From: Tahibacter soli
Lineage (GTDB): Bacteria; Pseudomonadota; Gammaproteobacteria; Xanthomonadales; Rhodanobacteraceae
DNA length: 60,168 nt
Reading direction: 5' to 3'
Assembly (NCBI RefSeq): GCF_025717065.2
Contig: NZ_JAOVZO020000021.1
Location: forward strand, 1 to 60,168
Shown: one piece after another, positions 25,134 through 55,018 of the stretch
Layout: each line of letters begins with the position of its first letter
Numbering within the stretch: the stretch's first letter is position 1
Notes under the pieces: generated by a model
Databases searched by the model: none
The model's input: the letters and a program-made list of their open reading frames with translations, nothing else
What the model was told of the DNA's origin: nothing
Position numbers and translations under genes: made by a program

Positions 25134-26606
25134 ATGCGCATCCACCTCCTGCCGGCGCTCGCCGCGCTGGCCGCCGCGACCGCGGTCCGTGCCGGTCCCG
25201 GCGATTTTGACCCGGCGTTCGGCGCGAACGGCAAGACCGCCGTCGCGTTCGACCAGCCGGGCGGCAACCGCGCCGACCGCGCGATCGCGACGATTCCGCT
25301 GGCCGGCGGCGGGCTGCTCGTCGTCGGCAGCGTCGAGCCGCGCGTCAACGCGCACGACATCGTCGGCTTCGCGCGCCTGTTGCCGAACGGCCAGCGCGAT
25401 ACGACGTTCGGCACCGACGGCAAGGTCGTGCAGGAAACGGTGTTCGAGCGCATCGTCGACGCGGGCGTCGACAACGACGGCCGCATCTTCGTCGGCGGGC
25501 AGTTTCGCGACCCGAACGGCGGCGATCTCGAATTCGGCGTCATGCGCTACACCGCCGCGGGCCAGCCGGACCTCGGCTACGGCTTCTTCGGCCTCGCGGT
25601 TGCCGGCTTCGAACGCGGCGGCAACAACAACGACGCGCTGTCGGCGATTCGCGTGAGCTTCGGCGGCGAGGTGTTCGCCGTCGGCAGCGTCAAGATCGGC
25701 GCGGCGGCCGACGTCGACTTCGGCGTCGCGAACTTCGACGTCAACGGTGCGCTCGACACGAGCTTCAGCGACGACGGACTGCTCACGATCGCGTTCGACC
25801 TCGACGGCGCGGCCGCGCCCGACGACGCGCTCGCGCTCAGCGAATGGAACCCCAACACCATGCGCGTGGCCGGCACCGCGCTGCGCGCCGACGGCACGCG
25901 CGTCGTCGCGGTCGCGTCGTTCCTCACGAGCACCGGCATCCTGACGCCGGCGTTCTGCAGCGACACGTCGTGCCAGGGCGTACAGGGATCGCTCGTGGCG
26001 GGGCCGGGCAAGCGCACCTTCAAGTTCGACCCGACGGTCGCGAGCACCGACTTCGTCACCGGCGGCGCGCTGCAGACCGGTACGGGCGGCGGCTTCGCGG
26101 TCGTCGGCACCTCGACGACGACGGGATCGGTTGCGGTGCGCGGCGCGATCGGCGTGATGACGCAGAGCGGCCTGCTGCTGCCGCGCGCCGGCGACCCGCG
26201 GTTCGGCCGTGCGCTGATCGACCTCGGCAACCCGACGGTGCCGACGTCGGTCGTGCACCGGTTCGGCGACGCGCACTGGATCGTCGCGGGCTACCTCGGC
26301 GCGTCGCCTGCCATGGTCGGCTTCGCCGGCTACTTCGACGCGAACGTCGAGGCGGATACGAGCTTCACGATGTCGAGCCTCGGCGGCCCGCCGCTGCCGT
26401 CGGCGTACCAGCTCATCGAGTTTCCGCGCCAGAACGCCGCGCAGCCGGTGGAGACGTATCCGGCATCGCTCGCGATCGATACCGAGCAGCGCATCGTCGG
26501 CGCCGGCTCGCGGCTTTGGGCGCGGTCGACGGGGATCGAAGACACCGACTACGCGGTGTTCCGTCTCGACGACAGCGATGCGATCTTCGCGGACGGGTTC
26601 GAGTGA
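25134..26606 (+). CDS. Secreted protein with delta-60-type repeats and IFADGFE tail
   Basis: This 490-residue protein has a signal peptide (MRIHLLPALAALAAATAVRA), then four or more repeats of the delta-60/beta-propeller type, each near GDFDPAFGANGK, RDTTFGTDGKV, LGYGFFGLA and LDTSFSDDGLL. The second half is Thr/Gly-rich beta sequence with a disulfide-type CSDTSC. The last seven residues are IFADGFE, shared with the proteins at 52292 and (as IFGNGFQ) 34053. It is probably exported to the periplasm, surface or medium. The function is unknown. The ATG follows GAAGGGAGTCATC. Confidence 0.8.
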   Translation: MRIHLLPALAALAAATAVRAGPGDFDPAFGANGKTAVAFDQPGGNRADRAIATIPLAGGGLLVVGSVEPRVNAHDIVGFARLLPNGQRDTTFGTDGKVVQETVFERIVDAGVDNDGRIFVGGQFRDPNGGDLEFGVMRYTAAGQPDLGYGFFGLAVAGFERGGNNNDALSAIRVSFGGEVFAVGSVKIGAAADVDFGVANFDVNGALDTSFSDDGLLTIAFDLDGAAAPDDALALSEWNPNTMRVAGTALRADGTRVVAVASFLTSTGILTPAFCSDTSCQGVQGSLVAGPGKRTFKFDPTVASTDFVTGGALQTGTGGGFAVVGTSTTTGSVAVRGAIGVMTQSGLLLPRAGDPRFGRALIDLGNPTVPTSVVHRFGDAHWIVAGYLGASPAMVGFAGYFDANVEADTSFTMSSLGGPPLPSAYQLIEFPRQNAAQPVETYPASLAIDTEQRIVGAGSRLWARSTGIEDTDYAVFRLDDSDAIFADGFE

Positions 26607-26610
26607 CGCG

Positions 26611-27279
26611 TCAGTCGTAGTACTGCGTCAGCAGCACGCGCGGCGTGTAGCGGCGCTCGCGTGTCGACATCGTGTCGGGCGCGCCGGCCGGCGGTTCGCC
26701 GCGATCGAACACGCGGATGCCGTAGGCGCCGGCCGCGCGATTGCCCCACCAGACGTAGACGTCGTTCTCGTCGACGACCACGCGCGTGTCGGGCGGCAGA
26801 CGATCGACGATGCGCGGCTGCGAATTCCGCAGCGCGCGCAGTTCGCGACGCAACTCGTGCGTGACGCGCGGCGGCGCCGCGGCGACCTGTGCGCGCGCCG
26901 CCGAGGCGAACTCGACGAGGGCGGCTTCTTCGATGTCCGCGGCCCGCAGCGACTGCGTCATGCCCCACAGATACGGCGGCGGCAGCGCGAACGGGACGAA
27001 CCACAGCGCGACGAGTACCGTGAGCGCGATGACATAGCGCGGATGCACGCGGCGTTGCACGGTGCGTACGACGAGCGCCAGCCCGAACACGATCGTGCCG
27101 AGCGTACCGACGGCGATCGCGAAGGCGGCGACGACGAACAGCAGCATCAGATCGCCGTCGAACCGCCAGCCGGCGACGAAGGCGACGGCATAGGCGAACA
27201 GACGTGCCGCGAGCACGAGCGTCGCAAGCACCAGTGCGTTCGCCGCGACGCGTGTCATCGGATAGTTTTCGTCGGTCAT
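26611..27279 (-). CDS. Inner-membrane protein, unknown
   Basis: This 222-residue protein has four hydrophobic helices in its N-terminal half (about 15-38, 45-70, 82-101 and a weaker one). A soluble C-terminal region follows (about 120-222: RNSQPRIVDRLPPDTRVVVDENDVYVWWG), probably cytoplasmic or periplasmic and rich in beta strand. I do not recognise the family. It converges on the secreted-protein gene at 25134 with only four bases between the stops. No neighbouring gene explains its role. Confidence 0.65.
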   Translation of the reverse strand: MTDENYPMTRVAANALVLATLVLAARLFAYAVAFVAGWRFDGDLMLLFVVAAFAIAVGTLGTIVFGLALVVRTVQRRVHPRYVIALTVLVALWFVPFALPPPYLWGMTQSLRAADIEEAALVEFASAARAQVAAAPPRVTHELRRELRALRNSQPRIVDRLPPDTRVVVDENDVYVWWGNRAAGAYGIRVFDRGEPPAGAPDTMSTRERRYTPRVLLTQYYD

Positions 27280-27538
27280 CGCCCGATACTAGCGAGCCGG
27301 ACGTGACGACGCTCGCGCCGCGCACTCATGAAGAAACGGAATGTGCTTAGCGCGACGACGCTCGCGCGCGCTTTCGCCGATCCGCGCCGAAGCCGCGCCG
27401 CCACGCCGAATGTCACGCGACACGACGCGCGACGCGTCATGCCGGGCCCGCCCTCGAGGCGCGCGGGACTTAACCGGTGCCTAACGGCGCGCCGCCAATG
27501 ATCGAAGCCGACAGCCATCCTTCGTTCGGAGATTCGCG

Positions 27539-28183
27539 ATGCTCACCTCGACGCTGCACGAACCTTCCTCCGTCTACGCCACGCGCACCGTATCGGCTTC
27601 GGCGCCGCGCGAGTTTCCCGGTCTGCGCCAGATCGTGCGCGAAGTCGAAACGGCCTGGGGACTGCGCGAGACGACCGAAGTCGTCCGCGCGCTCAACGCG
27701 CGCATGCCGGCGCTGATCGAACGCTACCGGCCGCAGCTGCCGGGCTGGGCGAATGGCGTCGACACGCACGCCGCGTCGTACCGGCGCATCGAACTGCATC
27801 ACTGCCCGCTGCACGGATTCCAGATTCTCGCGATGGTCTGGGGACCGGGGCAGGGCACGCCGGTGCACGACCATCGCGACCAGTGGGGCATCGAATCGGT
27901 GTGGCAGGGCGAACTCGACGTCGTCGACTTTGCCGTGAAAGGATCGGCCGGCGATCTCGTGCGGCTCGAACCGAGCAACGTCTCGCGCCTGTCGACGGGC
28001 CGCTCGCTCGGCTTCACGCCGGAGCAGGGCCTGCATCTGTGCCGCAATCCGTCGCATCGCAACGCGACGATTTCGCTGCACATCTACGCGCGGGCGCTCG
28101 ATGCGTTCAACCAGTACGTCGACATCGGCGACGGGTGGTACGAACGACGCGAGTACGTGCCGTCGCAACAGCATTCGCAGTGA
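27539..28183 (+). CDS. Cysteine-dioxygenase-family cupin
   Basis: This 214-residue protein has the type I cysteine dioxygenase cupin motifs: GTPVHDHRDQWGIESVWQGE (iron ligands His-x-His at about 109/111, following WGPGQ) and the third His in TISLHIYA (about 184). These enzymes oxidise cysteine or related thiols to sulfinates using non-heme iron and O2. The bacterial Arg-type members also act on 3-mercaptopropionate, so the substrate is not certain. The next gene, an AraC regulator, lies 42 bp downstream in the same direction. Confidence 0.8.
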   Translation: MLTSTLHEPSSVYATRTVSASAPREFPGLRQIVREVETAWGLRETTEVVRALNARMPALIERYRPQLPGWANGVDTHAASYRRIELHHCPLHGFQILAMVWGPGQGTPVHDHRDQWGIESVWQGELDVVDFAVKGSAGDLVRLEPSNVSRLSTGRSLGFTPEQGLHLCRNPSHRNATISLHIYARALDAFNQYVDIGDGWYERREYVPSQQHSQ

Positions 28184-28225
28184 CCTCGGCAACGACGCGC
28201 GCGGGCGCCGTCGTATGATCGCCGC

Positions 28226-29083
28226 ATGCCCGAACGCCTGTTCGTCCAGCTCGACGACGACCCGACCGCCGGCCCGCAGTCCGGCACGGGCGGCGCGTTC
28301 CGCGCGTTCGCCTTCGCGCCGGCATTGCGCGGGCACGTCGCGAGCGTCATGGCGTATCGCGAAGCGTTCGCGGCCGGGCACGAGGTCTGCGAACGCGTGC
28401 TGCCGGACGGCGCGGTGCGCCTCGCGTTCAATCTCGGCGACGCGCCGGGTGTCGGCGACGACGTCGGCCATGCGATCGAAGCGATCGGCGCGTCGACCGC
28501 GCCGGCGCTCGTGCGGCTGCGCGGTCGCATCCACGGACTCACCGTAACACTGCAACCCGGCGCCGCCGCGGCGCTGCTCGGTCTGCCCGCCGGCGAAATC
28601 GCCGGCGGCGCGGTGCATCTCGACGACGTCTGGGGACGTGCCGGTTCCGCGCTGCTCGAACGTCTCGCCGCCGCGCGCGACGACGCGGCGCGCGCGGCGC
28701 TCGTCATGGCCGAGCTCGAACGGCGTCTCGCGCATGCCGGCGCCGTCGCGCCGCCGGTCGCCGCGCACGCGGCGCGGCTGATCGCCGCCTCGCGGGGTCG
28801 CATGACGGTGCGCGAGGTCGCCGCGACGCTCGGCGTCGGCGAGCGTCGCCTGCAGCAGCTGTTCCATGCGCAGGTCGGCCTTTCGCCGCGCGCGTGGAGC
28901 CGCCTCGCGCGGCTGCGCGCGTGCCTGCGTGCGCTGCGCGAGTCGCCGGCGCCGCGCTGGGCCGACGTCGCCGTCGATGGCGGCTTCTACGACCAGTCGC
29001 ACCTCGTCAACGAATTCCGCGCGCTGTGCGGCATGACGCCGACCGAATATCTCGGCAGCGTTGCGGGTTCTTCCAATACGTAG
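28226..29083 (+). CDS. AraC-family transcriptional regulator
   Basis: This 285-residue protein carries an N-terminal ligand-type domain resembling DUF6597-like sensor regions (RVLPDGAVRLAFNLGD, TLQPGAAAALLGLPAGEIAG). A C-terminal double helix-turn-helix follows (about 185-275: MTVREVAATLGVGERRLQQL, GGFYDQSHLVNEFRALCG, GMTPTEY). It lies between the cysteine-dioxygenase-like gene and the SDR, all in one direction, and could control the latter. The effector is unknown. Confidence 0.85.
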   Translation: MPERLFVQLDDDPTAGPQSGTGGAFRAFAFAPALRGHVASVMAYREAFAAGHEVCERVLPDGAVRLAFNLGDAPGVGDDVGHAIEAIGASTAPALVRLRGRIHGLTVTLQPGAAAALLGLPAGEIAGGAVHLDDVWGRAGSALLERLAAARDDAARAALVMAELERRLAHAGAVAPPVAAHAARLIAASRGRMTVREVAATLGVGERRLQQLFHAQVGLSPRAWSRLARLRACLRALRESPAPRWADVAVDGGFYDQSHLVNEFRALCGMTPTEYLGSVAGSSNT

Positions 29084-29132
29084 CGCCGCCGCCGCGCTAC
29101 CGTCGTCGCACGACTCGACGGGAGAACGCACG

Positions 29133-30038
29133 ATGCAAGACGGCAACGACAAACCCCTGAAGGACTGCGTGGTCGTGGTCACCGGTGCGAGCCGCGGCGG
29201 CGGACGCGGCATCGCGCACGAACTCGGCGCGGCCGGCGCGACGGTCTACGTCACCGGCCGCAGCACGCGCGAGCGGCCGGCCGACACGTACGCGCGGATC
29301 CTCGCGCTGTCGGGAGAGACGACGCTGCCCGGCAGCATCGACGACACCGCCGACGAAGTGACGCGCGCCGGCGGTCGCGGCATCGCGGTGCGCTGCGACC
29401 ACACGCGCGACGACGACGTCGCCGCGCTGTTCGACCGCGTGCGCCGCGACCACGGCCGCGTGGACCTGCTCGTAAACAACGCGTGGGGCGGGCACGAGGT
29501 ATTCGACGGCGTGTTCGTCGCGCCGTTCTGGGAGCGACCGCTCGATCAGTGGGACGCGATGATCGACCGCGGCGTGCGCAACCACTGGCTCGCGAGCCGG
29601 CATGCGGCGCCGCTGATGGTCGCCGCGAAGCGCGGCTTGATCGTCACGACAACGTTCTGGGACCGCGACCGCTACCTCGACGGCAACCTGATGTACGACC
29701 TGGCGAAGGCGGCGATGACGCGGCTCGCGTTCGGGATGGCGCAGGAACTGAAGCCGCACGGCGTGGCGTCGGTCGCGGTGTCGCCGGGGTGGATGCGGAC
29801 GGAGTTCATTCTGGCGGGCTTCAAGACGGACGAGGCGCATTGGCACGAGGTGCCGGCGCTGGCGCGGACCGAGTCGCCGCGGTATCTCGGGCGGGCGGTT
29901 GCGGCGTTGGCGGGGGATGTGGAGGTGATCGCGAAGACGGGGAGGGTGGTGACGGTGGGGGAGCTGGCGCGCGAGTATGGGTTTACCGATGTCGATGGGC
30001 GGCAGCCGGTGGCGTTTGAGATGGGCACGGACGCGTAG
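29133..30038 (+). CDS. Short-chain dehydrogenase/reductase
   Basis: This 301-residue SDR has the cofactor loop TGASRGGGRGIAHEL (about 16-30), NNAWGG in place of NNAG, and a catalytic YDLAKAAM (Tyr-x-x-x-Lys). The usual active-site Ser is replaced by a Thr-rich stretch (VTTTFWDRDR). This matches the DHRS1-like SDR group. I chose the ATG at 29133 behind GACGGGAGAAC; the frame continues upstream without a better start. The last third of the gene changes codon style from C-ending to G-ending, unlike its own first part. Confidence 0.85.
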   Translation: MQDGNDKPLKDCVVVVTGASRGGGRGIAHELGAAGATVYVTGRSTRERPADTYARILALSGETTLPGSIDDTADEVTRAGGRGIAVRCDHTRDDDVAALFDRVRRDHGRVDLLVNNAWGGHEVFDGVFVAPFWERPLDQWDAMIDRGVRNHWLASRHAAPLMVAAKRGLIVTTTFWDRDRYLDGNLMYDLAKAAMTRLAFGMAQELKPHGVASVAVSPGWMRTEFILAGFKTDEAHWHEVPALARTESPRYLGRAVAALAGDVEVIAKTGRVVTVGELAREYGFTDVDGRQPVAFEMGTDA

Positions 30039-30291
30039 GGGATAGCTTCGAAGAGTAGCCGCAGATTTGGCGAATCTTCTATCTTCTGACTTTGCTTCTC
30101 TCTACCTTCGTCCCGGCGGAGGCCGGATTACGCCGGCTCGGTTGCTGAAACGAGCAGTCGAGCAGCGAATGAGTCGAAGGTCAAATCAATCATATTTATC
30201 TCTTAGGAAAAATGTATATTAAATGCCATTGCCATCGACATAGTTTGAACACTACGAGTGCCGCAAAGTGAGTGTTGGATGTATCGGTAAA

Positions 30292-31704: not shown

Positions 31705-31937
31705 TTCCAGTCCCTTGTTGGGGCCGAACGCAAATTCTAGTCCTATTCTGGAAGCGGCAACTTGGCCCATCCGAGGTTTTCGAAGAATTGCGGGGCGTCT
31801 GCAGGGATGTTTTGAGACAGTGTCCAGCGGCGTCCACGACCGAACCCACATCAGGACCGTCGAATTTCGCAGTTGACTTCAAGACAATCGGATTCTGAGA
31901 GTTTCGGAGCGAATCGCTCCGTGATTAAGGAGTAGCG

Positions 31938-32982: not shown

Positions 32983-33192
32983 ATGGCCAAGCGCAATCCT
33001 ACCTCCCGCAACGCCTCCACCCGCCAAATCCGCGTCGGCAAGATCTGCTACGCCGAAGGCGTGAACTTCGCCGCCTGCGACGTCCCGCACATCCGCCTCC
33101 TCGGCCACTGGCTCGCCGACGCCGGCTTCATGCCGGACGACGAAGTCACCGTCCGCATCCGCGACGGCTGCCTCGTTCTCACCCGCCGCTGA
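32983..33192 (+). CDS. symE: SymE-family toxin (AbrB-fold)
   Basis: A 69-residue protein with the SymE signature: RQIRVGKICY strand, PHIRLLGHWLADAGF, then DEVTVRIRDGCLVL. In E. coli SymE is an SOS-induced toxin with an AbrB-like fold. Its translation is blocked by the antisense RNA SymR, encoded opposite its 5' end. Homologous antisense control here is possible, but I cannot see a clear minus-strand promoter. It lies at the end of the 30-33 kb accessory patch, as stand-alone SymE genes often do. Confidence 0.8.
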   Translation: MAKRNPTSRNASTRQIRVGKICYAEGVNFAACDVPHIRLLGHWLADAGFMPDDEVTVRIRDGCLVLTRR

Positions 33193-33365: not shown

Positions 33366-33944
33366 ATGCCGACGTTCGGTAAATCGCTGGCCTTCGCGTG
33401 CTTCGCATCGATCGCCTTTGCGGCGACGCCGTCGCATGCCGACGACGCCGCGTCGTTCCGGCCGTTGATCGAAGCGAGCGCCGAGCGTCTCGCGTTGGCC
33501 GAGGCGGTCGCGCAGAGCAAGTTCGCGCGCGCGGCGCCGGTGCTCGACGCGGCGCGCGAACGCCAGGTGCTCGACGCGGCGGCGCAGGAGGGCGCGACGA
33601 TCGGTCTGCCTGACGCGTACGTGCGCCAGGTCGTCGGCGATCAGATCGAAGCGAACAAGCTCGTGCAGTACGCGCTGATCGCGCAGTGGCGTGCGACCGG
33701 CACGCTGCCGGCCACGGCGCCGCCGGATCTGGCGGCGACCGTCCGACCGCGGCTCGACCGGCTGCAGCGCGCCGTGCTCGAAGGCTTGCGCAATGTCGGC
33801 AGCCTGCGCGGCGCCAGCGACTGCGAAACACGCCGCGACGCGGCAGTCATGGCCTACGCGCAGGAGAAGGCGTCGACGCCGCTGCAGCAGACGGCGCTCG
33901 TGAGGTCGCTGGTGGGGGTTTGCCAGTTGTCCGGCGGACGCTGA
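33366..33944 (+). CDS. Periplasmic chorismate mutase (AroQ-gamma type)
   Basis: This 192-residue protein has a signal peptide (MPTFGKSLAFACFASIAFAA, cut near SHADD). The all-helical AroQ fold follows: LIEASAERLALAEAVAQSK, the RERQVLDAA segment, a QIEANKLVQY helix with Glu/Asn/Lys in place, and a disulfide pair (CETRRDA...GVCQ). The exported gamma class converts chorismate to prephenate in the periplasm, reported in several Gram-negative pathogens and plant-associated bacteria. It stands alone here, with no partner dehydratase. Confidence 0.85.
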   Translation: MPTFGKSLAFACFASIAFAATPSHADDAASFRPLIEASAERLALAEAVAQSKFARAAPVLDAARERQVLDAAAQEGATIGLPDAYVRQVVGDQIEANKLVQYALIAQWRATGTLPATAPPDLAATVRPRLDRLQRAVLEGLRNVGSLRGASDCETRRDAAVMAYAQEKASTPLQQTALVRSLVGVCQLSGGR

Positions 33945-34052: not shown

Positions 34053-34997
34053 TCACTGGAACCCGTTGCCGAAGATCGCATCGACCATCAGCCCGACATC
34101 GCTCATCAGCGCGCGGTCGAGCGCGCCGATGTCGTAGCGCGTGCCGCGGTAGAACACGACACCGTTCATCAGCTCATCGATAAGCGTCGCGTCGGGCGCG
34201 GCGGCTTCGCGCGCGAACGATGGCGGCGCGTCGATCGACGGCGGCAGTTCGCACGTCGCCTGCGGTACCGGTGCGCCGTACGCCCATTCGACCGGCGCGA
34301 GCGATTGCCGCGCCGGGTGCGCCGCGAGCAGTGCCGCATTACCCCAGTGCTTGTTGTTGCCGGTCGTGACGTCGGGTGCGTAGCCCCAGGCCGCGACGGC
34401 GTAGGGACCGGTGATCACGCTCGGTGCGCCGGGCTGCATCCAGCGGTCGAACGTCGACCAGTACGTCGCCGGCGGCACGCCGGTCGTCAGATCGGCCCAG
34501 CCGTTGTACGCGAGCACGTGGCCGATCTCGTGCAGCGCCACGCTCATCGCGTCGGTGCGGTTCGCCGGCACCGGCGCCGTGCGCGCGGCCGGCGCGGGAT
34601 CGAACCACAGCTCGTTGCGCAGATACGCAAGACCGAACGTCACGGTGCCGTCGGGCGCCGCGCCGTTCGGGTCGGTGCCGGTGCGCAGCTCGTACGCGAC
34701 GCCTTGCTCGTAGGTCGTGCGGCCGGCGATCGTGCCGATCGGCGACGACGCATTGCTCGTGCCGTTCGCGGTCGGCACGTTGCTCACGGCGACGCGCAGC
34801 TCGATCGCGCGTGTGGCCGTGATGCCGAGCGCCTGCATCCAGCGCCGGCCGGCTTCGCGCAGATGGGTTTCGACGTTGCCGCGCTCGTCGGCCGTCAGCA
34901 CGTTCGCCGACGCGTCGAAGTCGACGGTGAAGGTCACCTGCGCGTGCGCGGCGGAAGCGGCCAGCGCGAACGCGGCCGTGGCGAATCGACGAATCAT
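34053..34997 (-). CDS. Secreted metallopeptidase-like protein with IFGNGFQ tail
   Basis: A 314-residue protein from ATG 34997 with signal peptide MIRRFATAAFALAASAAHAQ. A beta-rich domain is followed by a zinc-binding HEIGH (about residues 165-169, SVALHEIGHVLAYNGW), as in metzincin-like peptidases. A third ligand is not certain, although a His lies later at about 215. The last seven residues are IFGNGFQ, close to the IFADGFE tails of the proteins at 25134 and 52292. It is likely exported and processed or sorted. Its substrate is unknown. Confidence 0.7.
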   Translation of the reverse strand: MIRRFATAAFALAASAAHAQVTFTVDFDASANVLTADERGNVETHLREAGRRWMQALGITATRAIELRVAVSNVPTANGTSNASSPIGTIAGRTTYEQGVAYELRTGTDPNGAAPDGTVTFGLAYLRNELWFDPAPAARTAPVPANRTDAMSVALHEIGHVLAYNGWADLTTGVPPATYWSTFDRWMQPGAPSVITGPYAVAAWGYAPDVTTGNNKHWGNAALLAAHPARQSLAPVEWAYGAPVPQATCELPPSIDAPPSFAREAAAPDATLIDELMNGVVFYRGTRYDIGALDRALMSDVGLMVDAIFGNGFQ

Positions 34998-36475: not shown

Positions 36476-36874
36476 ATGTCGTCGTCGCTGTCCACCCCGG
36501 CCGGCTGGTTCGCGCGCGCGGCGCTGTGCCTCGCGTTCGTCTACAGCGGCGTCGCCAAGATCCTCGACTGGCCCGGCGCGCTCGCCGAGCAGGCGCATTT
36601 CGGTCTCGAACCGGCGGCGCTGTTCGCCGCCGCGACGATCGCGGTGCAGCTCGGCGGCTCGGCGCTCGTGCTGTTCGCGCGCGGCCGCGCTCGCGCGCTC
36701 GGCGCGCTCGCGCTCGCGGCGTTCACGATCGCGGCCACGCTGATCGCGCACGCGTTCTGGCGCGAAACCGGCATCGACCGCTTCCGCGATCTCAACGCCT
36801 TTCTCGAACACATCGGCCTCGTCGGCGGCTTCGTGCTGGTCGCCGCGCTCGCGTGGCGCGAGACTCGCGCCTAA
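36476..36874 (+). CDS. DoxX-family membrane protein
   Basis: This 132-residue protein has four membrane segments and the DoxX pattern: FARAALCLAFVYSGVAKILD at the start, then ALFAAATIAVQLGGSALVLF. Polar residues in the last loop (FWRETGIDRFRDL) resemble DoxX-like subunits. The family includes subunits of quinone oxidoreductases and uncharacterised proteins. Its last 22 bases overlap the GTG start of the sensor kinase at 36853, so the two are translationally coupled. Confidence 0.8.
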   Translation: MSSSLSTPAGWFARAALCLAFVYSGVAKILDWPGALAEQAHFGLEPAALFAAATIAVQLGGSALVLFARGRARALGALALAAFTIAATLIAHAFWRETGIDRFRDLNAFLEHIGLVGGFVLVAALAWRETRA

Positions 36875-39810
36875 CCCTCGCGCTGCGCACGCTCGCAGCG
36901 CTCGCCGGCGCGTTCGCGGCGCCGCACGCGCGCGCGCTCGACGCCGACCTTGCGATTACGCAGTTCTACCACACGGCCTGGACCGTCAAGGAAGGCGCGC
37001 CCGGCGAGGTCACCGCGCTCGCGCAGACCGCCGACGGCTGGCTGTGGATCGGCACGCACGCCGGCCTCTATCGCTTCGACGGCGTGCGCTTCGAGCGCGT
37101 CGTCGCGCCGCACGGCACGGCGTTTCCGTCGCAGAGCGTGTCGGCGCTGTACGCGGCGCCGCGCGGCGGGCTGTGGATCGGCTATCGCTACGGTGACGCA
37201 ACCTTGCTCGACGGCGACCGGCTGACGAACTACAGCGCGCTCGACGGCGGCTTTTCGACCGGCTCGGTGTTCGGCTTCGCGGCCGAACGCGACGGCACGA
37301 TCTGGGCCGCGACGTTCCGCGGCCTGCAGCGGTTCGACGGCACGCGCTGGCGCTGGGCTGGCGGCGACCGCGACTTTCCCGGCACGCAGGCGCGCGCCGT
37401 GTTCGTCGATCGCGACGGCACGGTCTGGGCCGCGTCGGAAGACGCGATCGCCCGGCTGCCGCGCGGCGCGGCACGTTTCGAACGCGTCGCCGGGCGCGCG
37501 GCGCTCGCGAGCCGCTTCGCGCAAGGGCCCGACGGCGCTATCTGGATCGCCGAGACCGGCGGCGGCGTGCGCCGCGTCGACGCGGCCGGCGCCGCGCTCG
37601 CGCCGGCCGCGCTCTCGACCGCCGCGAGCGGTCTGCTGTTCGATCGCGACGGCGGCTTGTGGATCGCGAGCGCGGGGCAGGGATTGCGGCGAATGCCGCG
37701 CCCCGCGAGCGGCGCGGTGCAGGCGTTCGAGGAACGCGACGGCCTGTCGGCCGATTTCGCCGGTCCGCTCGTCGAAGACCGCGAAGGCAGCTTGTGGGTC
37801 GGCACGAGCCGCGGCCTGGACCGCCTGCGCCGCGCGAATCTGGTTCCGGCCGCGCTGCCGAACGGCGCGCACGATTTCGCGCTCGCGGCCGGCGAGCGCG
37901 GCGAGGTCTGGGTCGGCACGCGCAACCGGCCGCTGCTGCGCCTCGCCGCGGACGGCACGTCGCACGTCGCGCTCGATCGCACGATCACCTGCGCCTATCG
38001 CGATCGCGACGGCGGCCTGTGGTTCGGCGGTTCGGGCGGCATCTGGCGCCGCCGCGGCGAATCGATCGAGCGCATCGCCGAACTGCCGGCCGAGGCCAAG
38101 GCGTCGAGCGTGCAGGCGATCGCGCGCGACGCGGCGGGCACGCTCTGGGTGTCGTTGAATGCTCCCGGCGTTTTTCTGTATCGCGACGGCCGCTGGGTGC
38201 ACTGGCGCGAGCAGGCCGAACTCCTGACGCGCGCGTCGCCGCTGACGCTGATGGCCGATGCGCGCGGCGCGGTCTGGCTCGGGTTTTCGCACAACCGCAT
38301 CGTGCGGTTCGACGGCGCGACGTCGCGCCTGTTCGACGACAAGGACGGGCTCGACATCGGCAACGTGACAGCGCTGCACGAGCGTCGCGACGGCCGCGCC
38401 TGGATCGGCGGCGCGCGCGGCCTCGCGCTGTTCGACGGCGCGCGCTTCGCGAGCGTCGCCGCCGAAGCGGGTGCGCCGTTCGAGGGCGCGACCGGCATCG
38501 TCGAGCGTGCGAACGGCGAGCTGTGGATCAACGCCGGCGCCGGCGTCGTGCGCATCGACGCGGTCGCGACCGCCGCGTTTCTCGCCGATGCGTCGCGCCG
38601 CGTCGCGGTCGACGTGTTCGATACGCTCGACGGCCGGCCCGGCATTCCGCCGCAGTTCCGGCCGCTGCCGTCGGCGGTCGAGGCGAGCGACGGCCGGCTG
38701 TGGTTCGCGACGACCGGCGGCGTCGTCGCGCTCGATCCCGCGCGCCTCGTGCGCAATCCGCTGCCGCCGCCGGTGAGCGTGCGGTCGCTGCACGTCGGCG
38801 ACGTCGAATATCCGCTCGCCGGCGTGCCGCGGCTGCCGCCGCGTCCGTCGCAGCTGCGCATCGGCTACACCGCGACGAGCCTTGCGATTCCCGAGCGCGT
38901 GCGCTTTCGCTACCGGCTCGAAGGCCAGGACGCCGACTGGCAGAACGCCGGCACGCGGCGCGAGGCGTCGTACACGAATCTCGCGCCCGGCGCGTACCGG
39001 TTCCGGGTGATCGCGGCGAACGACGCGGGCGTCTGGAACGAGGCGGGCGCGGCGATCGACTTCGTCGTCGCGCCGGCGTTCTTCGAAACGGCGTGGTTTC
39101 GCGCGCTCGCCGCCGCGGCCGTGCTCGGCGTGCTGTACGGTCTGTACCTTGCACGTCTGCGCCGCGTCGCCGAGCGCGTGCGCGCGCGCGCCGAGGAACG
39201 CCATCTCGAACGCGAACGCATCGCGCGCGAACTGCACGACACGCTGCTGCAGGGCGTGCAGGGGCTGCTGTTGAAATTCGACGCCGCGGTTCATTCGCTG
39301 CCGGACGGCGGCGCGAAGGAGCGGCTCGGCAAGGTGCTCGACCGCGCGCGCGAAGTCGTCGTCGAGGGGCGCGACCGCGTGATGGCGCTGCGCGCGTCCG
39401 GGGCCGATCGCGATCTCGCGCAAGCGCTCGACGAAGTCGCCGCGGAACTCGCGCCCGACGGCTGCCGCGTGCGCGTGATCGAGATCGGCGAGGCGTTCGC
39501 GCTCGATCCGCTCGTCGCCGACGAGGCGTACTACATCGCGCGGGAGGCGCTGATCAACGCGCTCAAGCATGCGCGCGCGGCGCGCATCGACGTGGAGGTC
39601 GACCGCCGCCGCGGCCTCGCCGTGCGCGTTCGCGACGACGGCTGCGGCATCGATCCGGCGATACTCGCGGCCGGCGCCAAGGCGGGGCAGTGGGGCCTGC
39701 CCGGCATGCGCGAGCGCGCCGCGCGCATCGGCGCGACGCTCGCGATCCGCAGCCGCGCCGGCACGACGCTCGTGGAACTGCGCGTGCCGGCGAAGGTCGC
39801 GCGCGGGTAG
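36853..39810 (+). CDS. Large sensor histidine kinase with periplasmic two-component-propeller domain
   Basis: This 985-residue protein uses the GTG at 36853, giving a signal peptide (LTLALRTLAALAGAFAAPHA). About 14 blades of the Reg_prop type follow (repeated GLWIG, GTIWAA, GSLWVGTSRGLDRL), then a Y_Y_Y domain (about 665-740, ending LAPGAYRFRVIAANDAG). One membrane helix (about 745-770), HisKA_3 (RIARELHDTLLQGVQG, phospho-His about 796) and HATPase_c (EALINALKHARAARI, GQWGLPGMRERA) complete it. It senses an extracytoplasmic ligand and should phosphorylate a LuxR/NarL-type regulator, but none is adjacent. It overlaps doxX by 22 bases. Confidence 0.9.
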   Translation: MARDSRLTLALRTLAALAGAFAAPHARALDADLAITQFYHTAWTVKEGAPGEVTALAQTADGWLWIGTHAGLYRFDGVRFERVVAPHGTAFPSQSVSALYAAPRGGLWIGYRYGDATLLDGDRLTNYSALDGGFSTGSVFGFAAERDGTIWAATFRGLQRFDGTRWRWAGGDRDFPGTQARAVFVDRDGTVWAASEDAIARLPRGAARFERVAGRAALASRFAQGPDGAIWIAETGGGVRRVDAAGAALAPAALSTAASGLLFDRDGGLWIASAGQGLRRMPRPASGAVQAFEERDGLSADFAGPLVEDREGSLWVGTSRGLDRLRRANLVPAALPNGAHDFALAAGERGEVWVGTRNRPLLRLAADGTSHVALDRTITCAYRDRDGGLWFGGSGGIWRRRGESIERIAELPAEAKASSVQAIARDAAGTLWVSLNAPGVFLYRDGRWVHWREQAELLTRASPLTLMADARGAVWLGFSHNRIVRFDGATSRLFDDKDGLDIGNVTALHERRDGRAWIGGARGLALFDGARFASVAAEAGAPFEGATGIVERANGELWINAGAGVVRIDAVATAAFLADASRRVAVDVFDTLDGRPGIPPQFRPLPSAVEASDGRLWFATTGGVVALDPARLVRNPLPPPVSVRSLHVGDVEYPLAGVPRLPPRPSQLRIGYTATSLAIPERVRFRYRLEGQDADWQNAGTRREASYTNLAPGAYRFRVIAANDAGVWNEAGAAIDFVVAPAFFETAWFRALAAAAVLGVLYGLYLARLRRVAERVRARAEERHLERERIARELHDTLLQGVQGLLLKFDAAVHSLPDGGAKERLGKVLDRAREVVVEGRDRVMALRASGADRDLAQALDEVAAELAPDGCRVRVIEIGEAFALDPLVADEAYYIAREALINALKHARAARIDVEVDRRRGLAVRVRDDGCGIDPAILAAGAKAGQWGLPGMRERAARIGATLAIRSRAGTTLVELRVPAKVARG

Positions 39811-44083: not shown

Positions 44084-45574
44084 TCACTGGCACGGACCGT
44101 TGCTCGTCCACGGCTGGCCGGTGCCCGGGCCGCCGTTGTTCGTCGCCGGATCGTTGCCCTGCGTCCACCAGTTCGCGGTGTAGTTGACGTTGTTACGGCT
44201 CGCCTTGTTGCCGCCCACATAGACCTGCGTCGCGCTCCACGCGGGCTGGCACGTGCCGCCGGTGCCGCCGCCGAGCACCTGATTGCGCACGTTCACGGCG
44301 TTCGCGCCGTTGAACAGGAACACCGGGCTCGCCGGCGTGAACGTCGCGGCATTCGGCGCCGACAGCGAATAGCCCGAGGCGAGCACCGCGCCGGACAACG
44401 CCGTCTCGGAGAGCGTGCACGACTCGCCGCCGACGAGGCCCGCGATCGATCCGCCGGCCGGCGGCTTGAACGTCGTCGACTTCGTGCCCGAGGTACCGCA
44501 CACCGCCTGCACGGTGATGTTCGGCTGCGTCGTGATCTTCGTCGCGTCGCCCGAATACACGGCCGTGACCGCGATCGAAGCCGGGCCGGGCGTCACGGGG
44601 CCGGTGGCCGCCTTGAACGTGTTGTAGAACTGGAACAGCGACTGCGACACCTGCGAATACTCGCCGAGCGATCCGCTGCCGGGACGGTCGCGCTGCAGCG
44701 CCCAGTACGACAGATGGCCCACGCCCTTGGCCTGCGCGAACTGCGTGATCGTCGTCGCGTCGGCCGTGGTGAACGTTTCGCCGGCCACGTCGTTCACGCC
44801 GATCATCGGCGTGATGCCGAGCATCGCCCACAACTGCGCGTTGGTCTTGCCGGGATAGATCGGCGCGAGCTGCGCGACGGCCGCCGTCGCGGCCGACTGC
44901 GTGAGCTGCGCCATCGTCGAACCGTTGTGGTACGAGCCGCCGAAATCCATCGTCATGAGGTTGACGATGTCGAGCGTCGCGCCGGCCGTGGCCGCGCTCT
45001 GCACGGCGGCCACGCCGAAATGATCGAGACCGCCGCCGCCCCAGCTCGGATGCACCGGCACCGACGGCAAGGTCAGCGAAACGTACAGATTGGGATATTT
45101 CAACCGCAGCGCCTTGATCGCGGCGTTGCGCGTGGTGTTGAGCGCGGGGTTGCCGAGCTGGCCGCCTTCGACGTCGAAGTCGATCGCGCGCACGCCGGTC
45201 GTCTGCAGCATGCCGTCGATGAGATTGGTCAGCTGCGTGGCGCTGCAGGTCGATTCGAGATAGGTGCCGTTGGCGCCGCCGAACGAGATGATCACGCGGC
45301 CGCCGGCGTTCTGGAACGCGACGATGTCGCTCTGCATGTTCGAAACGGAATTGTCGACCGTGCACCCGCCGGCGCTGACGACGAAGGCGAGGGTGGCGGC
45401 GTTGAGCCCCATCTTGTTGCGCGCGTCCACGAGGCTGGTGACGGCGTAGGTCGTATTGCCGTAGCCCCAGGTGTAGAAATACGGCGCGAGCTGCGCCGCG
45501 CCCGCCGACGCGGCGCCTGCGAGCAGCGCGACGCCGAGGGTGGTGCGCAAAAGTGTCGATCGTACGGTTTTCAC
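44084..45574 (-). CDS. Secreted chitinase, GH18 with C-terminal chitin-binding module
   Basis: This 496-residue protein has a signal peptide (TTLGVALLAGAASAGAAQ) and a GH18 catalytic barrel with the active-site motif AIDFDVEGG (Asp132, Asp134, Glu136; DxDxE). Substrate-assisted hydrolysis of chitin is expected. Residues about 340-440 form an extra Ig-like or unknown domain (ITTQPNITVQAVCGTSG). The C-terminus is a CBM5/12 module (QPAWSATQVYVGGNKASR, YTANWWTQGNDP). The arrangement is a complete extracellular chitinase. It lacks the IF-x-x-GF tail of other secreted proteins here. Confidence 0.9.
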   Translation of the reverse strand: MKTVRSTLLRTTLGVALLAGAASAGAAQLAPYFYTWGYGNTTYAVTSLVDARNKMGLNAATLAFVVSAGGCTVDNSVSNMQSDIVAFQNAGGRVIISFGGANGTYLESTCSATQLTNLIDGMLQTTGVRAIDFDVEGGQLGNPALNTTRNAAIKALRLKYPNLYVSLTLPSVPVHPSWGGGGLDHFGVAAVQSAATAGATLDIVNLMTMDFGGSYHNGSTMAQLTQSAATAAVAQLAPIYPGKTNAQLWAMLGITPMIGVNDVAGETFTTADATTITQFAQAKGVGHLSYWALQRDRPGSGSLGEYSQVSQSLFQFYNTFKAATGPVTPGPASIAVTAVYSGDATKITTQPNITVQAVCGTSGTKSTTFKPPAGGSIAGLVGGESCTLSETALSGAVLASGYSLSAPNAATFTPASPVFLFNGANAVNVRNQVLGGGTGGTCQPAWSATQVYVGGNKASRNNVNYTANWWTQGNDPATNNGGPGTGQPWTSNGPCQ

Positions 45575-47343: not shown

Positions 47344-47359
47344 CGCCGGAGTCCAGCCC

Positions 47360-50157: not shown

Positions 50158-50212
50158 GCGCCGGCGATCAATATCGTAGAACCATCCACATTGTTGCCAA
50201 AGAGGAACGCAA

Positions 50213-50758
50213 ATGGCGAAGAAGAAAGTATCGAACGAAGCCGATCTAAAACGTCGCCGTCAGGCGCCGCTGATCACGCCGACCGACCTGAAAACGGGCG
50301 CGACGCGCGACATCGCCGGCGGACTGAACGGCATACTCGCCGACGTGTTCGCGCTGTACCTGAAGACGAAGAATTTTCACTGGCACATGAGCGGCCCGCA
50401 TTTTCGCGACTATCACCTGCTGCTCGACGAGCAGGCCGACCAGCTCTACGCGATGACCGACCCGATCGCCGAACGCATTCGCAAGGTGGGCGGCACGACG
50501 CTGCGTTCGATCGGCCACATCGCGCGCCTCGCGCGCGTGTCCGACAACGACGCGGACTACGTCGAACCGCTCGACATGCTGGCCGAGCTGCGCGAAGACA
50601 ACAAGTCGCTGGCCGGGCGTCTGCGCGAAGTCCATGACGTCTGCGACGAGCACCGCGACATCGCGTCGGCCAGCCTCATCGAGAACTGGATCGACGAGAC
50701 CGAACGCCGCACGTGGTTTCTGTTCGAGGCGAGCCGCGTCGGCAAGGGCGGCGGCTGA
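50213..50758 (+). CDS. dps: Dps-family ferritin-like protein
   Basis: This 181-residue protein has the Dps fold and ferroxidase residues: KTKNFHWHMSGPHFRDYHLL (His in the first helix), LDEQADQLYAMTDPIAERI, with the second-shell Asp and Glu. It has a Lys-rich N-terminal tail (MAKKKVSNEADLKRRRQ) of the kind that binds DNA. It oxidises Fe(II) with H2O2 and protects DNA in stress. It follows the iorB stop by 55 bp and has its own AGAGGAACG ribosome-binding site. An OxyR-type regulator is likely, but no site is obvious. Confidence 0.9.
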   Translation: MAKKKVSNEADLKRRRQAPLITPTDLKTGATRDIAGGLNGILADVFALYLKTKNFHWHMSGPHFRDYHLLLDEQADQLYAMTDPIAERIRKVGGTTLRSIGHIARLARVSDNDADYVEPLDMLAELREDNKSLAGRLREVHDVCDEHRDIASASLIENWIDETERRTWFLFEASRVGKGGG

Positions 50759-50776
50759 TCCGCGTATCCGCCGCGC

Positions 50777-52159
50777 TCAGTCGAGCGCGGCGAGCACCTG
50801 CGCCGCGAATTTCGCGATGTCGAACTTCGCGCCCGCGGGATCCTCGCCGCGCCGCACGAGCACCACGCTGCGGCTCGGCACGACGACGACGTACTGCCCG
50901 CGGTTGCCGATCGCGACGAGCGTGTCGGCCGGAACGCCGGGCGAGCGGTTGAGCAGCCAGAACGTCGCGCCGTAGCCGAAGTCGCCGGTCGGCGGCTGCG
51001 GTCCCGACGGCGTCGCGACGTACTGCCGCCAGCCCTCGGGCAGCACGCGCTCGCCGAGGAACACGCCGTCGTTCTGGTAGAGCAGGCCGAACCGCGCGAG
51101 GTCGCGCGCCGTCGACCACACCTGGCTCGACAACACGTAGTTGCCGTGCCAGTCGGTTTCCGGAACGGTGCGCGTCATGCCGATCTTCCACAGCAGCCGG
51201 GCGAACGGAAACGCCAGCGCCTCGCCGTCGTCGCCGATGCGTTCGCGCAGGCCGCGCACGGCGAGCACGATGTCGTTGTTGGCGTAGCGGAACGTCGAGC
51301 CCGGCGGCATCAAGAGCGGCGCGGCGGCCGAGTCCTGGTCGACCGTCGCGCCGCCGAAGTACAGCGCGTCGGTGCGGTTGCCGGCGGTGGCGCCGGACAG
51401 GCCGCTCGCCATGCGCAAAAGGTTGTCGGTGGTGATGACCGGTCGCGGATCGCCCGGCTGCTGCCACTGCGCGATCGACACGGGCTTGGCCGGGTCGATC
51501 CGTCCCTCCTTGCGCGCGACGCCGATCAGCGTGCCGGCCAGGCTCTTGGCGACCGACCACGTCCGCTGCGACACGTGCGGTCCGAAACCTTCGCGGTACT
51601 TCTCGGCGACGATGCGACCGCGCTGGACGACGACGACGGCCGTGGTTTCACTGCCGTCGCCGTAGTGCCTGCCGTCGAACGCGAGGTCGACGCCGCGCGC
51701 CAGCGCGCGCCGGTCGCCGCGCGCGCGTCCCGTGGCTTGCTTGTCGCCCAGGGGCCACGGCTTGCCGTCGAGATTCGGCGCCGGTGCGTCGAAGCGCGGC
51801 AGCGTCGCCACGGCGTCGATCGTCGCGCCGGCCGGCAGCTGCGCGCAGCCGAGATTGGGGCGCCACGCGGCGATGCGCGGCGGCGCCGCGTCGTCGAACG
51901 CGACCGAGACGATCTTGCGCTGCGCGTCGACGTTCGCGGCGAGCGTGGGCACGATCGCGTCGTACTCTGGATAGATGCCCTTGAGTTCCAGCGCGGACAT
52001 CTGCGCCTCGCTGCGGCCCGCATTGAAGATTCCGCTGCAGAGCGTGAGCGCCTTGTAGCCGGCGGCGATCGCGCGCTCGTACGGGCCGGGCGGTTTCGGT
52101 TGCGCGGCCGCGACGGCGCAGATGCACAGGCACAGCAGCAGGGCGGCAAAGCGTTTCAT
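50777..52159 (-). CDS. Exported class C beta-lactamase-family serine hydrolase
   Basis: This 460-residue protein starts at ATG 52159 with a signal peptide (LLLCLCICAVAAA). The beta-lactamase-family motifs are WSVAKSLAGTL (SxxK) and FRYANNDIV (YxN), with a later HGNYVLSSQVW/STARDLARFG segment as in EstB/6-aminohexanoate-oligomer hydrolase-like proteins. It is more likely an esterase or peptidase than a resistance enzyme. The region from 300 to 460 is complete. The gene is divergent from the secreted protein at 52292. Confidence 0.8.
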   Translation of the reverse strand: MKRFAALLLCLCICAVAAAQPKPPGPYERAIAAGYKALTLCSGIFNAGRSEAQMSALELKGIYPEYDAIVPTLAANVDAQRKIVSVAFDDAAPPRIAAWRPNLGCAQLPAGATIDAVATLPRFDAPAPNLDGKPWPLGDKQATGRARGDRRALARGVDLAFDGRHYGDGSETTAVVVVQRGRIVAEKYREGFGPHVSQRTWSVAKSLAGTLIGVARKEGRIDPAKPVSIAQWQQPGDPRPVITTDNLLRMASGLSGATAGNRTDALYFGGATVDQDSAAAPLLMPPGSTFRYANNDIVLAVRGLRERIGDDGEALAFPFARLLWKIGMTRTVPETDWHGNYVLSSQVWSTARDLARFGLLYQNDGVFLGERVLPEGWRQYVATPSGPQPPTGDFGYGATFWLLNRSPGVPADTLVAIGNRGQYVVVVPSRSVVLVRRGEDPAGAKFDIAKFAAQVLAALD

Positions 52160-52291
52160 GCGGGCGAAGCTCCGGTGTTGCGCGAGGCGGGTCCGCCATT
52201 CTGGCGCATTCGGGCATGACGATCGCGAGTGCCGAAAAACGTAAGCCTCGACAGAGCCCCCGCGCCGAGGGCCACGAACAGGGGTCACGTC

Positions 52292-55018
52292 ATGCTATCG
52301 CCGGCCATTCTTTGCCGATTCGCCGTGCTGTGCGCCGCGTTCTGGGCATTGCCCGCGTCCGCCGCGCCGTTCGCGTACGTCGCCAACGCCGATTCGGACG
52401 ACGTCTCGGTGATCGACATCGCGACGAACGCCGTCGTTGCGACGGTGCCGGTCGGCGACGAGCCCTACGGCGTCGGCATCACGCCCGACAATCGCTACGT
52501 CTACGTCGCGAACCACCTGGGCAACTCGCTCTCGGTGATCGATGCGAAGACGAACACCGTCACGGCGACCGTCGCGAACGTCTGCGCGAACCCGGCATTC
52601 GTCGAACCGACGCCGGACGGCACCGAGATGTGGGTCAGCTGCCTCGGCGAAACGCGCGTCGTCGTCGTCAATCGCGCGACGCACACGGTCACGCGCTGGC
52701 TGGTGTTCCAGACCCAGCCACACGGCATCACGTTCAACGCGGACGGCTCGCGCGTCTATGTCGCGAGCTTCGGCAACGCGACGGTGCGCGTGCACCGCGC
52801 CGACGTGCTGTGGGAGCTCAAGCAGGTGCCGAGCGGCATCGCGCCGACCGACGTGCAGATCGAGCCTTCCGGCGTCTTCGCGTGGGTGCTGTCGAGCGGC
52901 GAGTCGCGCATCACCAACATCGATCTGGCGACGAACCGCACGGACCGCACGCAGTGGTTCAGCGCGCCGCCGTTCAGCCTGACGATCCATCCGGACGGCG
53001 CGCGGATCTACGTGACGCTGCCCTCGGCGGGCCTCGTCTCGCGGTTCAACCCGTCCACGTTCGGGCAGTCGACGATCAACGTCGGCGGCACGCCGATGGG
53101 CATCGACCGCAGCGCCGACGGCAGCCGCCTCTACGTCGCGAACGAGAACGGCTACGTCACGGTGCTCGACACGGCGACGAACGCGATCGTCGCGACGATT
53201 CCGGTCGGATCGAAGCCGCGTTCGCACGGCCGCTTCGTCGCGAAAGGCTTTCTGCCGCCCGACTCGGTGCCCGAAGTGCCGTCGAACGTCGTCGCGACGG
53301 CCGGCGTCGCGCAGGTTTCGGTCGCGTTCTCGGCGGGCGGCGACGGCGGAGGACCGATCCTGCGCTACACGGCCACCTGCGGCACGCAGTCGCAGACCGG
53401 CATGGCATCGCCGATCGTCGTTTCGAACCTCGCGATCGGCACGCCGGTGACGTGCACGGTCGTCGCGACGAACGCGCTCGGCGACGGCGCGGCGTCGGCG
53501 CCGTCGAACGCGGCGACGCCTTACGCGATCGTGCCGGCGGCGCCGGCCGGCGTCGTCGCGACGGCCGGCGACTACGCGATCGCCGTCGCGTTCGCGACGC
53601 CGTACGACGGCCATTCGGCGATCACGCAGTACACGGCGACGTGTGCGACGCCCGATATCGCAAGCCCGTTCACCGCCGTCGGCCCGACGTCGCCGATCAC
53701 CGTGATCGGGACGCCGAATGCGCATTCGTATACGTGTACGGTTTTTGCGACGAACGCGATCGGCGACGGCGCGGCATCGGCGCCGTCGGCTGCCGCCATG
53801 CCGGACGCCGCGCCGCCGCGGCCGACCATCCAGACGCCGGTGCGCGGCAACGGACAGCTCACCGTCGCGTTCGCGCCGGTCGCAGCGCCCAACGGCTACA
53901 GCGCGATCACGAGCTGGACGCTGACCTGCGGTTCGCGGCAGGTGTCCGGCGCATCGTCGCCGCTCGTCGTCACCGGCCTGACCAACGGCGTGCCGCAGAC
54001 GTGCACGGTCGTCGCGAGAAACGCGCGCGGCGACAGTCCGCCGTCCGAACCGTCGGCGGCCGTGGCGCCGGCCACGGTGCCGGATGCGCCGGAGATCGTC
54101 GGCGTCGCGCGCGGCAACGGCATGGTCACCGTGTCGTTCGTGCCGCCCGCGTACAACGGCGGCATGCCGGTGACCGGCTACATCGTCCGCTGCGGCACGC
54201 AGGCGGTGTTCGGCGGCAATCTGTCGCTGCCGGTTTCCGGGCTCGCGAACGGCGTGCCGGTGACGTGCACGGTGCTCGCGCGCAACGACGTCGGCGACGG
54301 CGCGCCGTCGGCACCGTCGGAAAGCGTGACGCCGGCGACCGTGCCGGACGCGCCGACGCTGACGTCGGTCGCGAGCGGCGACGGCTCCGCGCAGCTCGTG
54401 TTCGCCGCGCCGGCGCAGGACGGCGGCGCGGACGTCTCGGGCTACCGCGCCTCGTGCGCGCCGGGCGCGCATGCGGCGAACGGCACGGCGTCGCCGCTCG
54501 TCGTGGAAGGCCTGACGAACGGACAGACGTATACCTGTTCCGTCGTCGCGACCAACGAGATCGGCACGGGCGTCGCATCGGCCGGCCTTGCGGTCGTGCC
54601 GCGACGCGTCGCGGACCTTTCGGTCGCGATCGACAACGGCACGTCGTTCATCGCGGGCGGCGCCACGACGACCTATCTGATCGACGTGGCGAACGGCGCC
54701 GCGGCCGGCGTCGCCGGCGTGCGCGTGCGCACCGCGTTCGGGCAGGGGTTCGTCGATCTCGCGTGGGCGTGCAGCGCGCAGGCCGGCTCGCAGTGCCCGG
54801 CGAGCGGCAGCGGCGAGATCGACGCGCTCGTCGATATGGCCGGCCAGTCGGGCGTGACGTTCCTCGTGACGGCGACGGTCGCCGCGCAACCCGAGGCGCC
54901 GGTGAGCGGCACCGCGACGATCGCGGCGCCGAACAGCGTCGACGATCCGGTCGCGTCGAACGATACCGCGACGGACGGCCCCGACGCGGTCGGCATCTTC
55001 GCGGACGGCTTCGAGTAG
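52292..55018 (+). CDS. Secreted YncE-like propeller plus fibronectin-III-like protein with IFADGFE tail
   Basis: A 908-residue protein from ATG 52292. The signal peptide (FAVLCAAFWALPASAAP) is followed by a seven-bladed YVTN/YncE-type propeller (about 25-320: FAYVANADSDDVSVIDIATN, GTPMGIDRSADGSRLYVAN). Five fibronectin-III-like repeats come next (about 330-770, each with CTVVATNALGDGAASAPSNA-like ends), then a final DUF11-like domain (ADLSVAIDNGTSFIAGG). The last seven residues are IFADGFE, identical to those of the protein at 25134. It is probably a surface or extracellular adhesin or binding protein. Confidence 0.8.
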   Translation: MLSPAILCRFAVLCAAFWALPASAAPFAYVANADSDDVSVIDIATNAVVATVPVGDEPYGVGITPDNRYVYVANHLGNSLSVIDAKTNTVTATVANVCANPAFVEPTPDGTEMWVSCLGETRVVVVNRATHTVTRWLVFQTQPHGITFNADGSRVYVASFGNATVRVHRADVLWELKQVPSGIAPTDVQIEPSGVFAWVLSSGESRITNIDLATNRTDRTQWFSAPPFSLTIHPDGARIYVTLPSAGLVSRFNPSTFGQSTINVGGTPMGIDRSADGSRLYVANENGYVTVLDTATNAIVATIPVGSKPRSHGRFVAKGFLPPDSVPEVPSNVVATAGVAQVSVAFSAGGDGGGPILRYTATCGTQSQTGMASPIVVSNLAIGTPVTCTVVATNALGDGAASAPSNAATPYAIVPAAPAGVVATAGDYAIAVAFATPYDGHSAITQYTATCATPDIASPFTAVGPTSPITVIGTPNAHSYTCTVFATNAIGDGAASAPSAAAMPDAAPPRPTIQTPVRGNGQLTVAFAPVAAPNGYSAITSWTLTCGSRQVSGASSPLVVTGLTNGVPQTCTVVARNARGDSPPSEPSAAVAPATVPDAPEIVGVARGNGMVTVSFVPPAYNGGMPVTGYIVRCGTQAVFGGNLSLPVSGLANGVPVTCTVLARNDVGDGAPSAPSESVTPATVPDAPTLTSVASGDGSAQLVFAAPAQDGGADVSGYRASCAPGAHAANGTASPLVVEGLTNGQTYTCSVVATNEIGTGVASAGLAVVPRRVADLSVAIDNGTSFIAGGATTTYLIDVANGAAAGVAGVRVRTAFGQGFVDLAWACSAQAGSQCPASGSGEIDALVDMAGQSGVTFLVTATVAAQPEAPVSGTATIAAPNSVDDPVASNDTATDGPDAVGIFADGFE

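Follow-up and report, generated by a model that had tools for sequence, protein, structure and literature searches.

A short C-terminal tail on unrelated exported proteins of Lysobacterales and its co-occurrence with one class of type II secretion system

The window and its three tails

The window analysed here is the whole of contig NZ_JAOVZO020000021.1 of Tahibacter soli (60,168 nucleotides; assembly GCF_025717065.2, 6.65 Mb in 23 contigs, hereafter G000), and it contains three genes for secreted proteins that finish with the same short tail, here called the tag. The first (25134-26606, forward strand) codes for a delta-60 repeat protein of 490 amino acids, which matches TIGR02608 above its cut-off as well as DUF5122 and ends in DAIFADGFE followed by the stop codon (26580-26606; motif proper 26583-26606). 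The second (34053-34997, reverse strand) produces a HEIGH-type metalloprotease-like protein of 314 amino acids, recognised by its orthologues and a weak match to NF038122, below cut-off; it ends in DAIFGNGFQ (34053-34079 with the stop; motif proper 34053-34076). The third (52292-55018, forward strand) encodes a protein of 908 amino acids with a YncE-type propeller (TIGR02276), fibronectin type III (fn3) and DUF11 domains, and ends in VGIFADGFE (54992-55018 with the stop; motif proper 54995-55018).

The translations bear out the three tails described in the initial annotation, which gave no strand for the second gene: its tail exists, but the gene runs from 34997 to 34053 on the reverse strand, and a forward-strand reading of that interval is not the gene. 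Signal-peptide-like N-termini were recognised by eye in all three proteins, and these are as dissimilar as had been claimed: they belong to different families and pairwise BLASTP gave no significant similarity, the best pair (E 0.55) corresponding to the last 11 residues, a result that excludes recent paralogy in the last domain. The absence of a hydrophobic helix or basic tail also holds, as the three proteins end at GF[EQ] and 101 exact tails from the wider survey do likewise. No further occurrence of the motif before a stop was found in the six frames of the window. Four other window genes (33366-33944, 36853-39810, 44084-45550 and 50777-52159) have signal-peptide-like starts and are untagged, thus the exported set is tagged only in part.

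Orthologues of the HEIGH protein in three genomes, 61-66% identical to it, end in LLRSGFQ, LLRSGFG and IFAGDFEPDR, indicating that the tail drifts within an orthologous set. An AlphaFold2 model of the same protein had a mean predicted local distance difference test score of 45.5 and was not interpretable.

Tagged proteins in the genome and across the order

The pattern IF.[DN]GF[EQ] before a stop has 17 matches in G000, compared to none for the reversed pattern, and a relaxed pattern has 33 compared to four; because the stop was written TRR, TGG is accepted as well and accounts for one of the 33. The 17 strict matches are 17 different 24-base strings, closed by eight TGA, six TAG and three TAA codons, so that it is the peptide that is conserved and not the DNA. 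Of the 101 exact tails, 55 have D at position -9 and 94 have I, L or V at position -7; both positions were left free in the search patterns, while positions -6, -3 and -2, and mostly -4 and -1, are fixed by selection. The resulting consensus is D-x-[ILV]-F-x-[DN]-G-F-[EQD], at the C-terminus or a few residues before it. Its placement was examined in 785 predicted proteins (314,130 residues) from 66 stretches of 12 genomes, where the core [ILVM]F.[DNSG]GF[EDQ] occurs 116 times, 97 times at the last residue, 17 times within 20 residues of the end and twice elsewhere, thus terminal or near-terminal in 114 of 116; the stretches had been picked for terminal tags, which inflates the 97 and leaves the 17 near-terminal cases and the rarity of internal ones unaffected.

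Some unusual placements were met. In L255 (11021-12658, genome G256) the motif lies near the N-terminus (VFADGFETVTPS, about 40 residues in) and not at the end, and two proteins, at L127 and L187, end in a tandem double tag, DLIF.NGFES-DIIF.[DN]GFE. A secreted family of about 100 residues with a repeated S..Y.L.G..G.. pattern (L066 15518-15841, L243 5341-5592, L148, L184) in many cases finishes with the tag, or else with LFRGGFQECI or LFNGNFEECN, in which a cysteine follows the core.

The pattern F.[DN]GF[EDQH] before a stop has at least one match in 135 of 299 Lysobacterales genomes and at least five in 76, which belong to certain lineages of the order. IF.[DN]GFE before a stop had no genuine match in 364 genomes sampled from the class outside this order, the single match (G337) containing an internal stop codon. 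Among the matches listed are Dokdonella, Pseudofulvimonas and Marinicella, all placed in Lysobacterales by the NCBI taxonomy, together with others under the unconfirmed labels Sedimenticola, Alcanivoracaceae, Pseudomonadales, Chromatiales, "Bacillota" and, in one case, an alphaproteobacterial metagenome-assembled genome. Open-licence PubMed Central papers included none with IFADGFE, and among the papers listed on similar tails, C-terminal sorting in this order, T2SS signals and Xps/Xcs nothing concerned this tail.

Compared by the 100 residues preceding the tag, 111 tagged proteins fall into 79 unrelated groups. When all but the 21 longest of 117 tagged proteins were aligned (96 sequences), invariance was confined to the start and to the F, G and F of the tag; these three follow from the way in which the set was selected, and the informative part is that no other column is invariant. 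The domains include DUF5122/delta-60, beta-helix, subtilase, FG-GAP and reprolysin-like ones (among the 25 of 54 families listed), and choice-of-anchor Q in eight proteins and B, I and D in two each (among the 25 of 66 families listed). In four proteins, three with choice-of-anchor Q (one of these matches being below its cut-off) and one with J, the domain stops 9-22 residues before the protein end, directly preceding the tag.

A signal-peptide-like N-terminus is present in 98 of 119 tagged proteins, a number that falls to 21 when their N-termini are shuffled, and in 220 of 616 untagged neighbours; the rule is home-made and tries several starts per gene, which gives a high background, and several of the 21 tagged proteins that it misses, kept in the count, look like mis-called starts. 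Tagged proteins thus look Sec-exported, and the tag favours exported proteins and is not equally frequent in cytoplasmic ones, the outcome that the initial annotation had named as fatal to its proposal. The feature is real, lies at the protein level, is linked to export and, among the sampled genomes, is specific to the order.

Co-occurrence with a PDZ-type secretion system

A search for GspD, a component of the type II secretion system (T2SS), in 61 genomes revealed two classes, A and B. Class B is found in most of the 61, irrespective of tag count, and at the four loci that were read (L299, L300, L301, L303) it is part of a complete XpsN-type operon. Class A sits in a gspC-gspD-gspE(-gspF) locus, and in G000 its GspC, GspD, GspE and GspF exceed the NCBIfam cut-offs. 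Identity to the class A GspD of G000 is 43-81% within class A and about 25-31% in class B. The two classes also differ in GspC, since PDZ_2 matched all 15 class A sequences (E<=0.01), whereas a PDZ model matched none of four class B ones. In most tag-rich genomes class A coexists with the Xps-type system, and genes that by eye resemble rhlB, trxA and rho adjoin many class A loci. The T2SS loci of G031, G270 and G287, genomes with 0-1 tags, have an adjacent pseudopilin gene and lack these three neighbours; G046, which is counted as class A, likewise lacks them.

Tag counts and the best match to a class A GspD profile were combined, typed by hand, for the 299 genomes, taking as tag-rich those with at least five exact tags and as class A those with at least about 1.1 bits per aligned position; this rule includes G270 in class A and leaves out G031 and G287, and partial matches place ten fragmented genomes in A. 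Class A GspD is found in 72 of the 76 tag-rich genomes (65 full-length matches and seven partial ones at contig ends) compared to 46 of the 223 others, and 36 of those 46 belong to family f10; with f10 excluded, the figures are 69 of 73 and 10 of 183. By family, tag-rich against other genomes, class A is present in 11/11 and 1/65 in f1, 2/2 and 0/76 in f2, where it is confined to the two tag-rich genomes among 78, and 3/3 and 4/36 in f8; f9 (27/29 and 3/4) and f10 (3/3 and 36/40) are uninformative as a test. In the 61-genome set class A is present in 25 of 26 tag-rich genomes, in G006 by a partial match. The correlation with a secretion gene, which the initial annotation had put forward as a check, is thus found with one T2SS class over 299 genomes.

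Most f10 genomes have class A and only 0-7 exact tags, a combination that led to the search for a variant, which was found to be enriched. The pattern F.D[x]FE without a stop, whose counts include internal matches, has 13-86 matches in 16 of 17 f10 genomes and one in the remaining G116, compared to 0-5 for the reversed controls; ten genomes without class A by the above rule have 0-9 (controls 0-5), among them G054, which has no T2SS, with nine compared to two in its control. In the tag-rich G000, G044 and G117 the counts are 49, 31 and 71, and in the tag-poor class A genomes G109, G198, G270 and G150 they are 5, 4, 2 and 1. The f10 tail has the form F.D[GRS]FE plus a few residues. In G083 (20 fetched stretches) 23 of 25 matches lie 0-12 residues from the C-terminus, and in one locus from each of 16 f10 genomes the match lies within 17 residues of the end in ten and not in six, so that the tail position is established for some f10 genomes only.

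The independence of these co-occurrences was evaluated by means of a class B GspD tree covering 58 genomes, which stood in for a species tree. Both tag and class A are strongly clustered on it. Their joint absence requires four changes, all forced by well-supported branches, one of them being at G015, which adjoins the tag-rich G022. In independent pairs differing in the tag, class A agrees in 2.9-3.4 of five and opposes in none; the corresponding values for sortase are 0.8 in agreement and 1.4 (strict tag) or 0.4 (f10 variant included) in opposition.

Sortase was considered as a partner and set aside. PF04203 is absent from G000 and from ten more of the 26 tag-rich genomes among the 61 searched, and is present in 15 of those 26 and in seven of the 35 others; this distribution is phylogeny-level background with no link to the tag. 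Sortase-like genes thus occur in 22 of 61 genomes of a Gram-negative order (G043, G053, G045, G001 and others).

Possible roles of the tail

The initial annotation proposed a sorting, processing or secretion signal, and as a correlation this is supported by the excess of exported proteins and the T2SS co-occurrence. With barely more confidence than doubt, we are inclined to see in the tail a linear C-terminal address, or sorting label, for Sec-exported cargo of the class A, PDZ-GspC T2SS. Tagged proteins would leave through this system, and recognition of the tail would take place in the periplasm, with the homology region or PDZ domain of GspC or the docking parts of GspD as the most plausible readers, and would sort cargo between two resident T2SSs. 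Two features expected of T2SS substrates are seen, namely the Sec-like signal in most tagged proteins (98/119) and a T2SS in the tag-rich genomes (class A GspD in 72/76), and a shared tail accompanied by a PDZ-GspC T2SS, in genomes that mostly have an Xps-type system too, fits a label choosing one of two machines.

According to two papers (PMC11981180, PMC7949064), T2SS substrates elsewhere are thought to be recognised by structural features, with neither a conserved signal nor a common linear signal sequence known. The second periplasmic region of GspC is the presumed substrate dock (PMC11981180), the PDZ domain of EpsC is required for one Vibrio substrate through its immunoglobulin (Ig) fold (PMC12369372), and in PelI a loop of nine residues acts together with GspC and GspD (PMC7949064). 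The same kind of machine is involved in Dickeya and Pectobacterium (Pel3/PelI) and with the PDZ-dependent Ig fold of VesB; in those cases the signals are structural and unshared between substrates, whereas here one linear tail is found on dozens of unrelated proteins per genome. A tail that was itself the T2SS signal would have no precedent in the literature examined. The wider claim, on which we are more hesitant and lean slightly towards doubt, is that it may be the first linear and portable T2SS substrate signal, in which nine residues would route part of a secretome via the PDZ-type machine and would have been lost alongside that machine in repeated lineages. T2SS cargo recognition is an unsolved question, and a tail of this kind would make it addressable by moving, deleting or mutating nine residues; many hypothetical Lysobacterales proteins could then be annotated as one secretome, and the tail might be used as a portable export tag.

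Several points weigh against a sorting label for class A. Four tag-rich genomes lack class A GspD (G080, G090, G147, G204; drafts of 150-530 contigs), as does the tag-rich G003 (830 contigs) in the 61-genome search. Conversely, G109 and G150, both of f8, have class A at its usual site with no exact tags and five and one loose matches, respectively; G178, G198 and G270 also have class A without a recognised tag; G031 has a complete PDZ-type T2SS of its own and no tags; and elsewhere in the class PDZ-GspC T2SSs work without the tag. For class A, neither pseudopilins nor GspL/M were located. The link between tag and class A is strong but correlative, its Fisher p-values ignore relatedness, and with five pairs a sign test cannot reach significance, so the tree offers support and not proof; moreover, sortase was the only other family profiled in the same genomes, so that another gene may track the tag equally well or better. 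Since the f10 tails mostly extend past the core and are non-terminal, binding of a free C-terminal carboxylate by the PDZ domain is unlikely and cannot be the general mode of recognition.

In the main rival reading the tail acts after export, as a signal for processing or surface attachment, with class A as no more than the route and an outer-membrane enzyme or receptor cutting or binding the tail; we regard this as unlikely while giving it real weight. A legumain-like or other peptidase that would cut at [DN]-G was also considered. By the naming practice of these domains, the choice-of-anchor slot precedes anchoring signals in other bacteria, and the presence of choice-of-anchor Q, B, I, D and J domains in tagged proteins agrees with such a role, as do the tandem double tags at L127 and L187. 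GlyGly-CTERM, the substrate of rhombosortase, carries a hydrophobic membrane segment. In Vibrio, GlyGly-CTERM proteins (VesB and relatives) use the T2SS but rely on a separate signal for secretion, while their C-terminal motif functions in processing and membrane association (PMC13393428). That system and the present one have in common that unrelated, Sec-exported and T2SS-dependent proteins carry a short C-terminal signal; here, T2SS dependence would be the corresponding feature. On the other hand, the tail here has no transmembrane helix or other hydrophobic segment and no basic tail, and GlyGly-CTERM has a dedicated rhomboid protease, while no recurrent enzyme stands next to the tagged genes across 66 loci from 12 genomes (no profile was run for exosortase, rhombosortase or peptidase families) and sortase does not track the tag. 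Models of M36 peptidases dependent on rhombosortase, myxosortase or the type IX secretion system (T9SS) gave matches to tagged proteins that were partial and, where inspected, far below cut-off, and were not used.

PEP-CTERM/exosortase and LPXTG/sortase resemble the tag in having an interchangeable C-terminal signal behind many different domains; they differ in that the tag has no hydrophobic helix or basic tail and sortase is absent from the genome of the window. PEP-CTERM and GlyGly-CTERM models had no match in the three window proteins (E<=1), no C-terminal match in ten tagged proteins (E<=0.001), and none among the 25 of 66 families listed for a set of 96. In the T9SS, too, outer-membrane export depends on the C-terminus, but the determinant is a folded domain tens of residues long, in another phylum, compared to nine residues here; its domains TIGR04183 and TIGR04131 were not matched in 13 tagged proteins.

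Less probable still is that tag and class A are both ancestral and were co-lost without a functional link, the tail serving, for example, to stabilise the protein or to dock it to a receptor in the periplasm or at the surface. The clustering of both traits on the tree and the single comparison family are in keeping with this improbable account, which is opposed by the joint absence forced at four places with no opposite pair, by the f2 pattern (2/2 and 0/76) and by the f10 variant, found after the presence of class A had prompted the search. Chance, a DNA repeat at gene ends and recent paralogy have nothing in their favour and are refuted by the 17 matches compared to none in the control, by their 17 different strings with three stop codons, and by the 79 groups among 111 proteins.

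As regards neighbouring genes, tagged genes lie beside four of 15 class A loci, about two being expected by a rough estimate, and this was not used; one of the four tags is IFASGFQ plus seven residues. Extracytoplasmic function (ECF) sigma factors and protein-kinase-like genes are each seen next to tags at 11 loci. A link to sigma factors is unsupported: in G000, three of 27 TIGR02999 genes over cut-off lie within 6 kb of a tag, compared to 1.5 expected (p 0.19), in a test that omitted two of the 33 relaxed matches, the TGG case and a tail ending in QSGFN, and used the other 31. A TIGR02999 ECF sigma factor and a protein-kinase-like gene adjoin tags at L058 (8654-11577), L059 (7509-10473), L065 (7030-10532) and others, and at L065 the sigma factor, kinase-like and tagged genes apparently form one operon.

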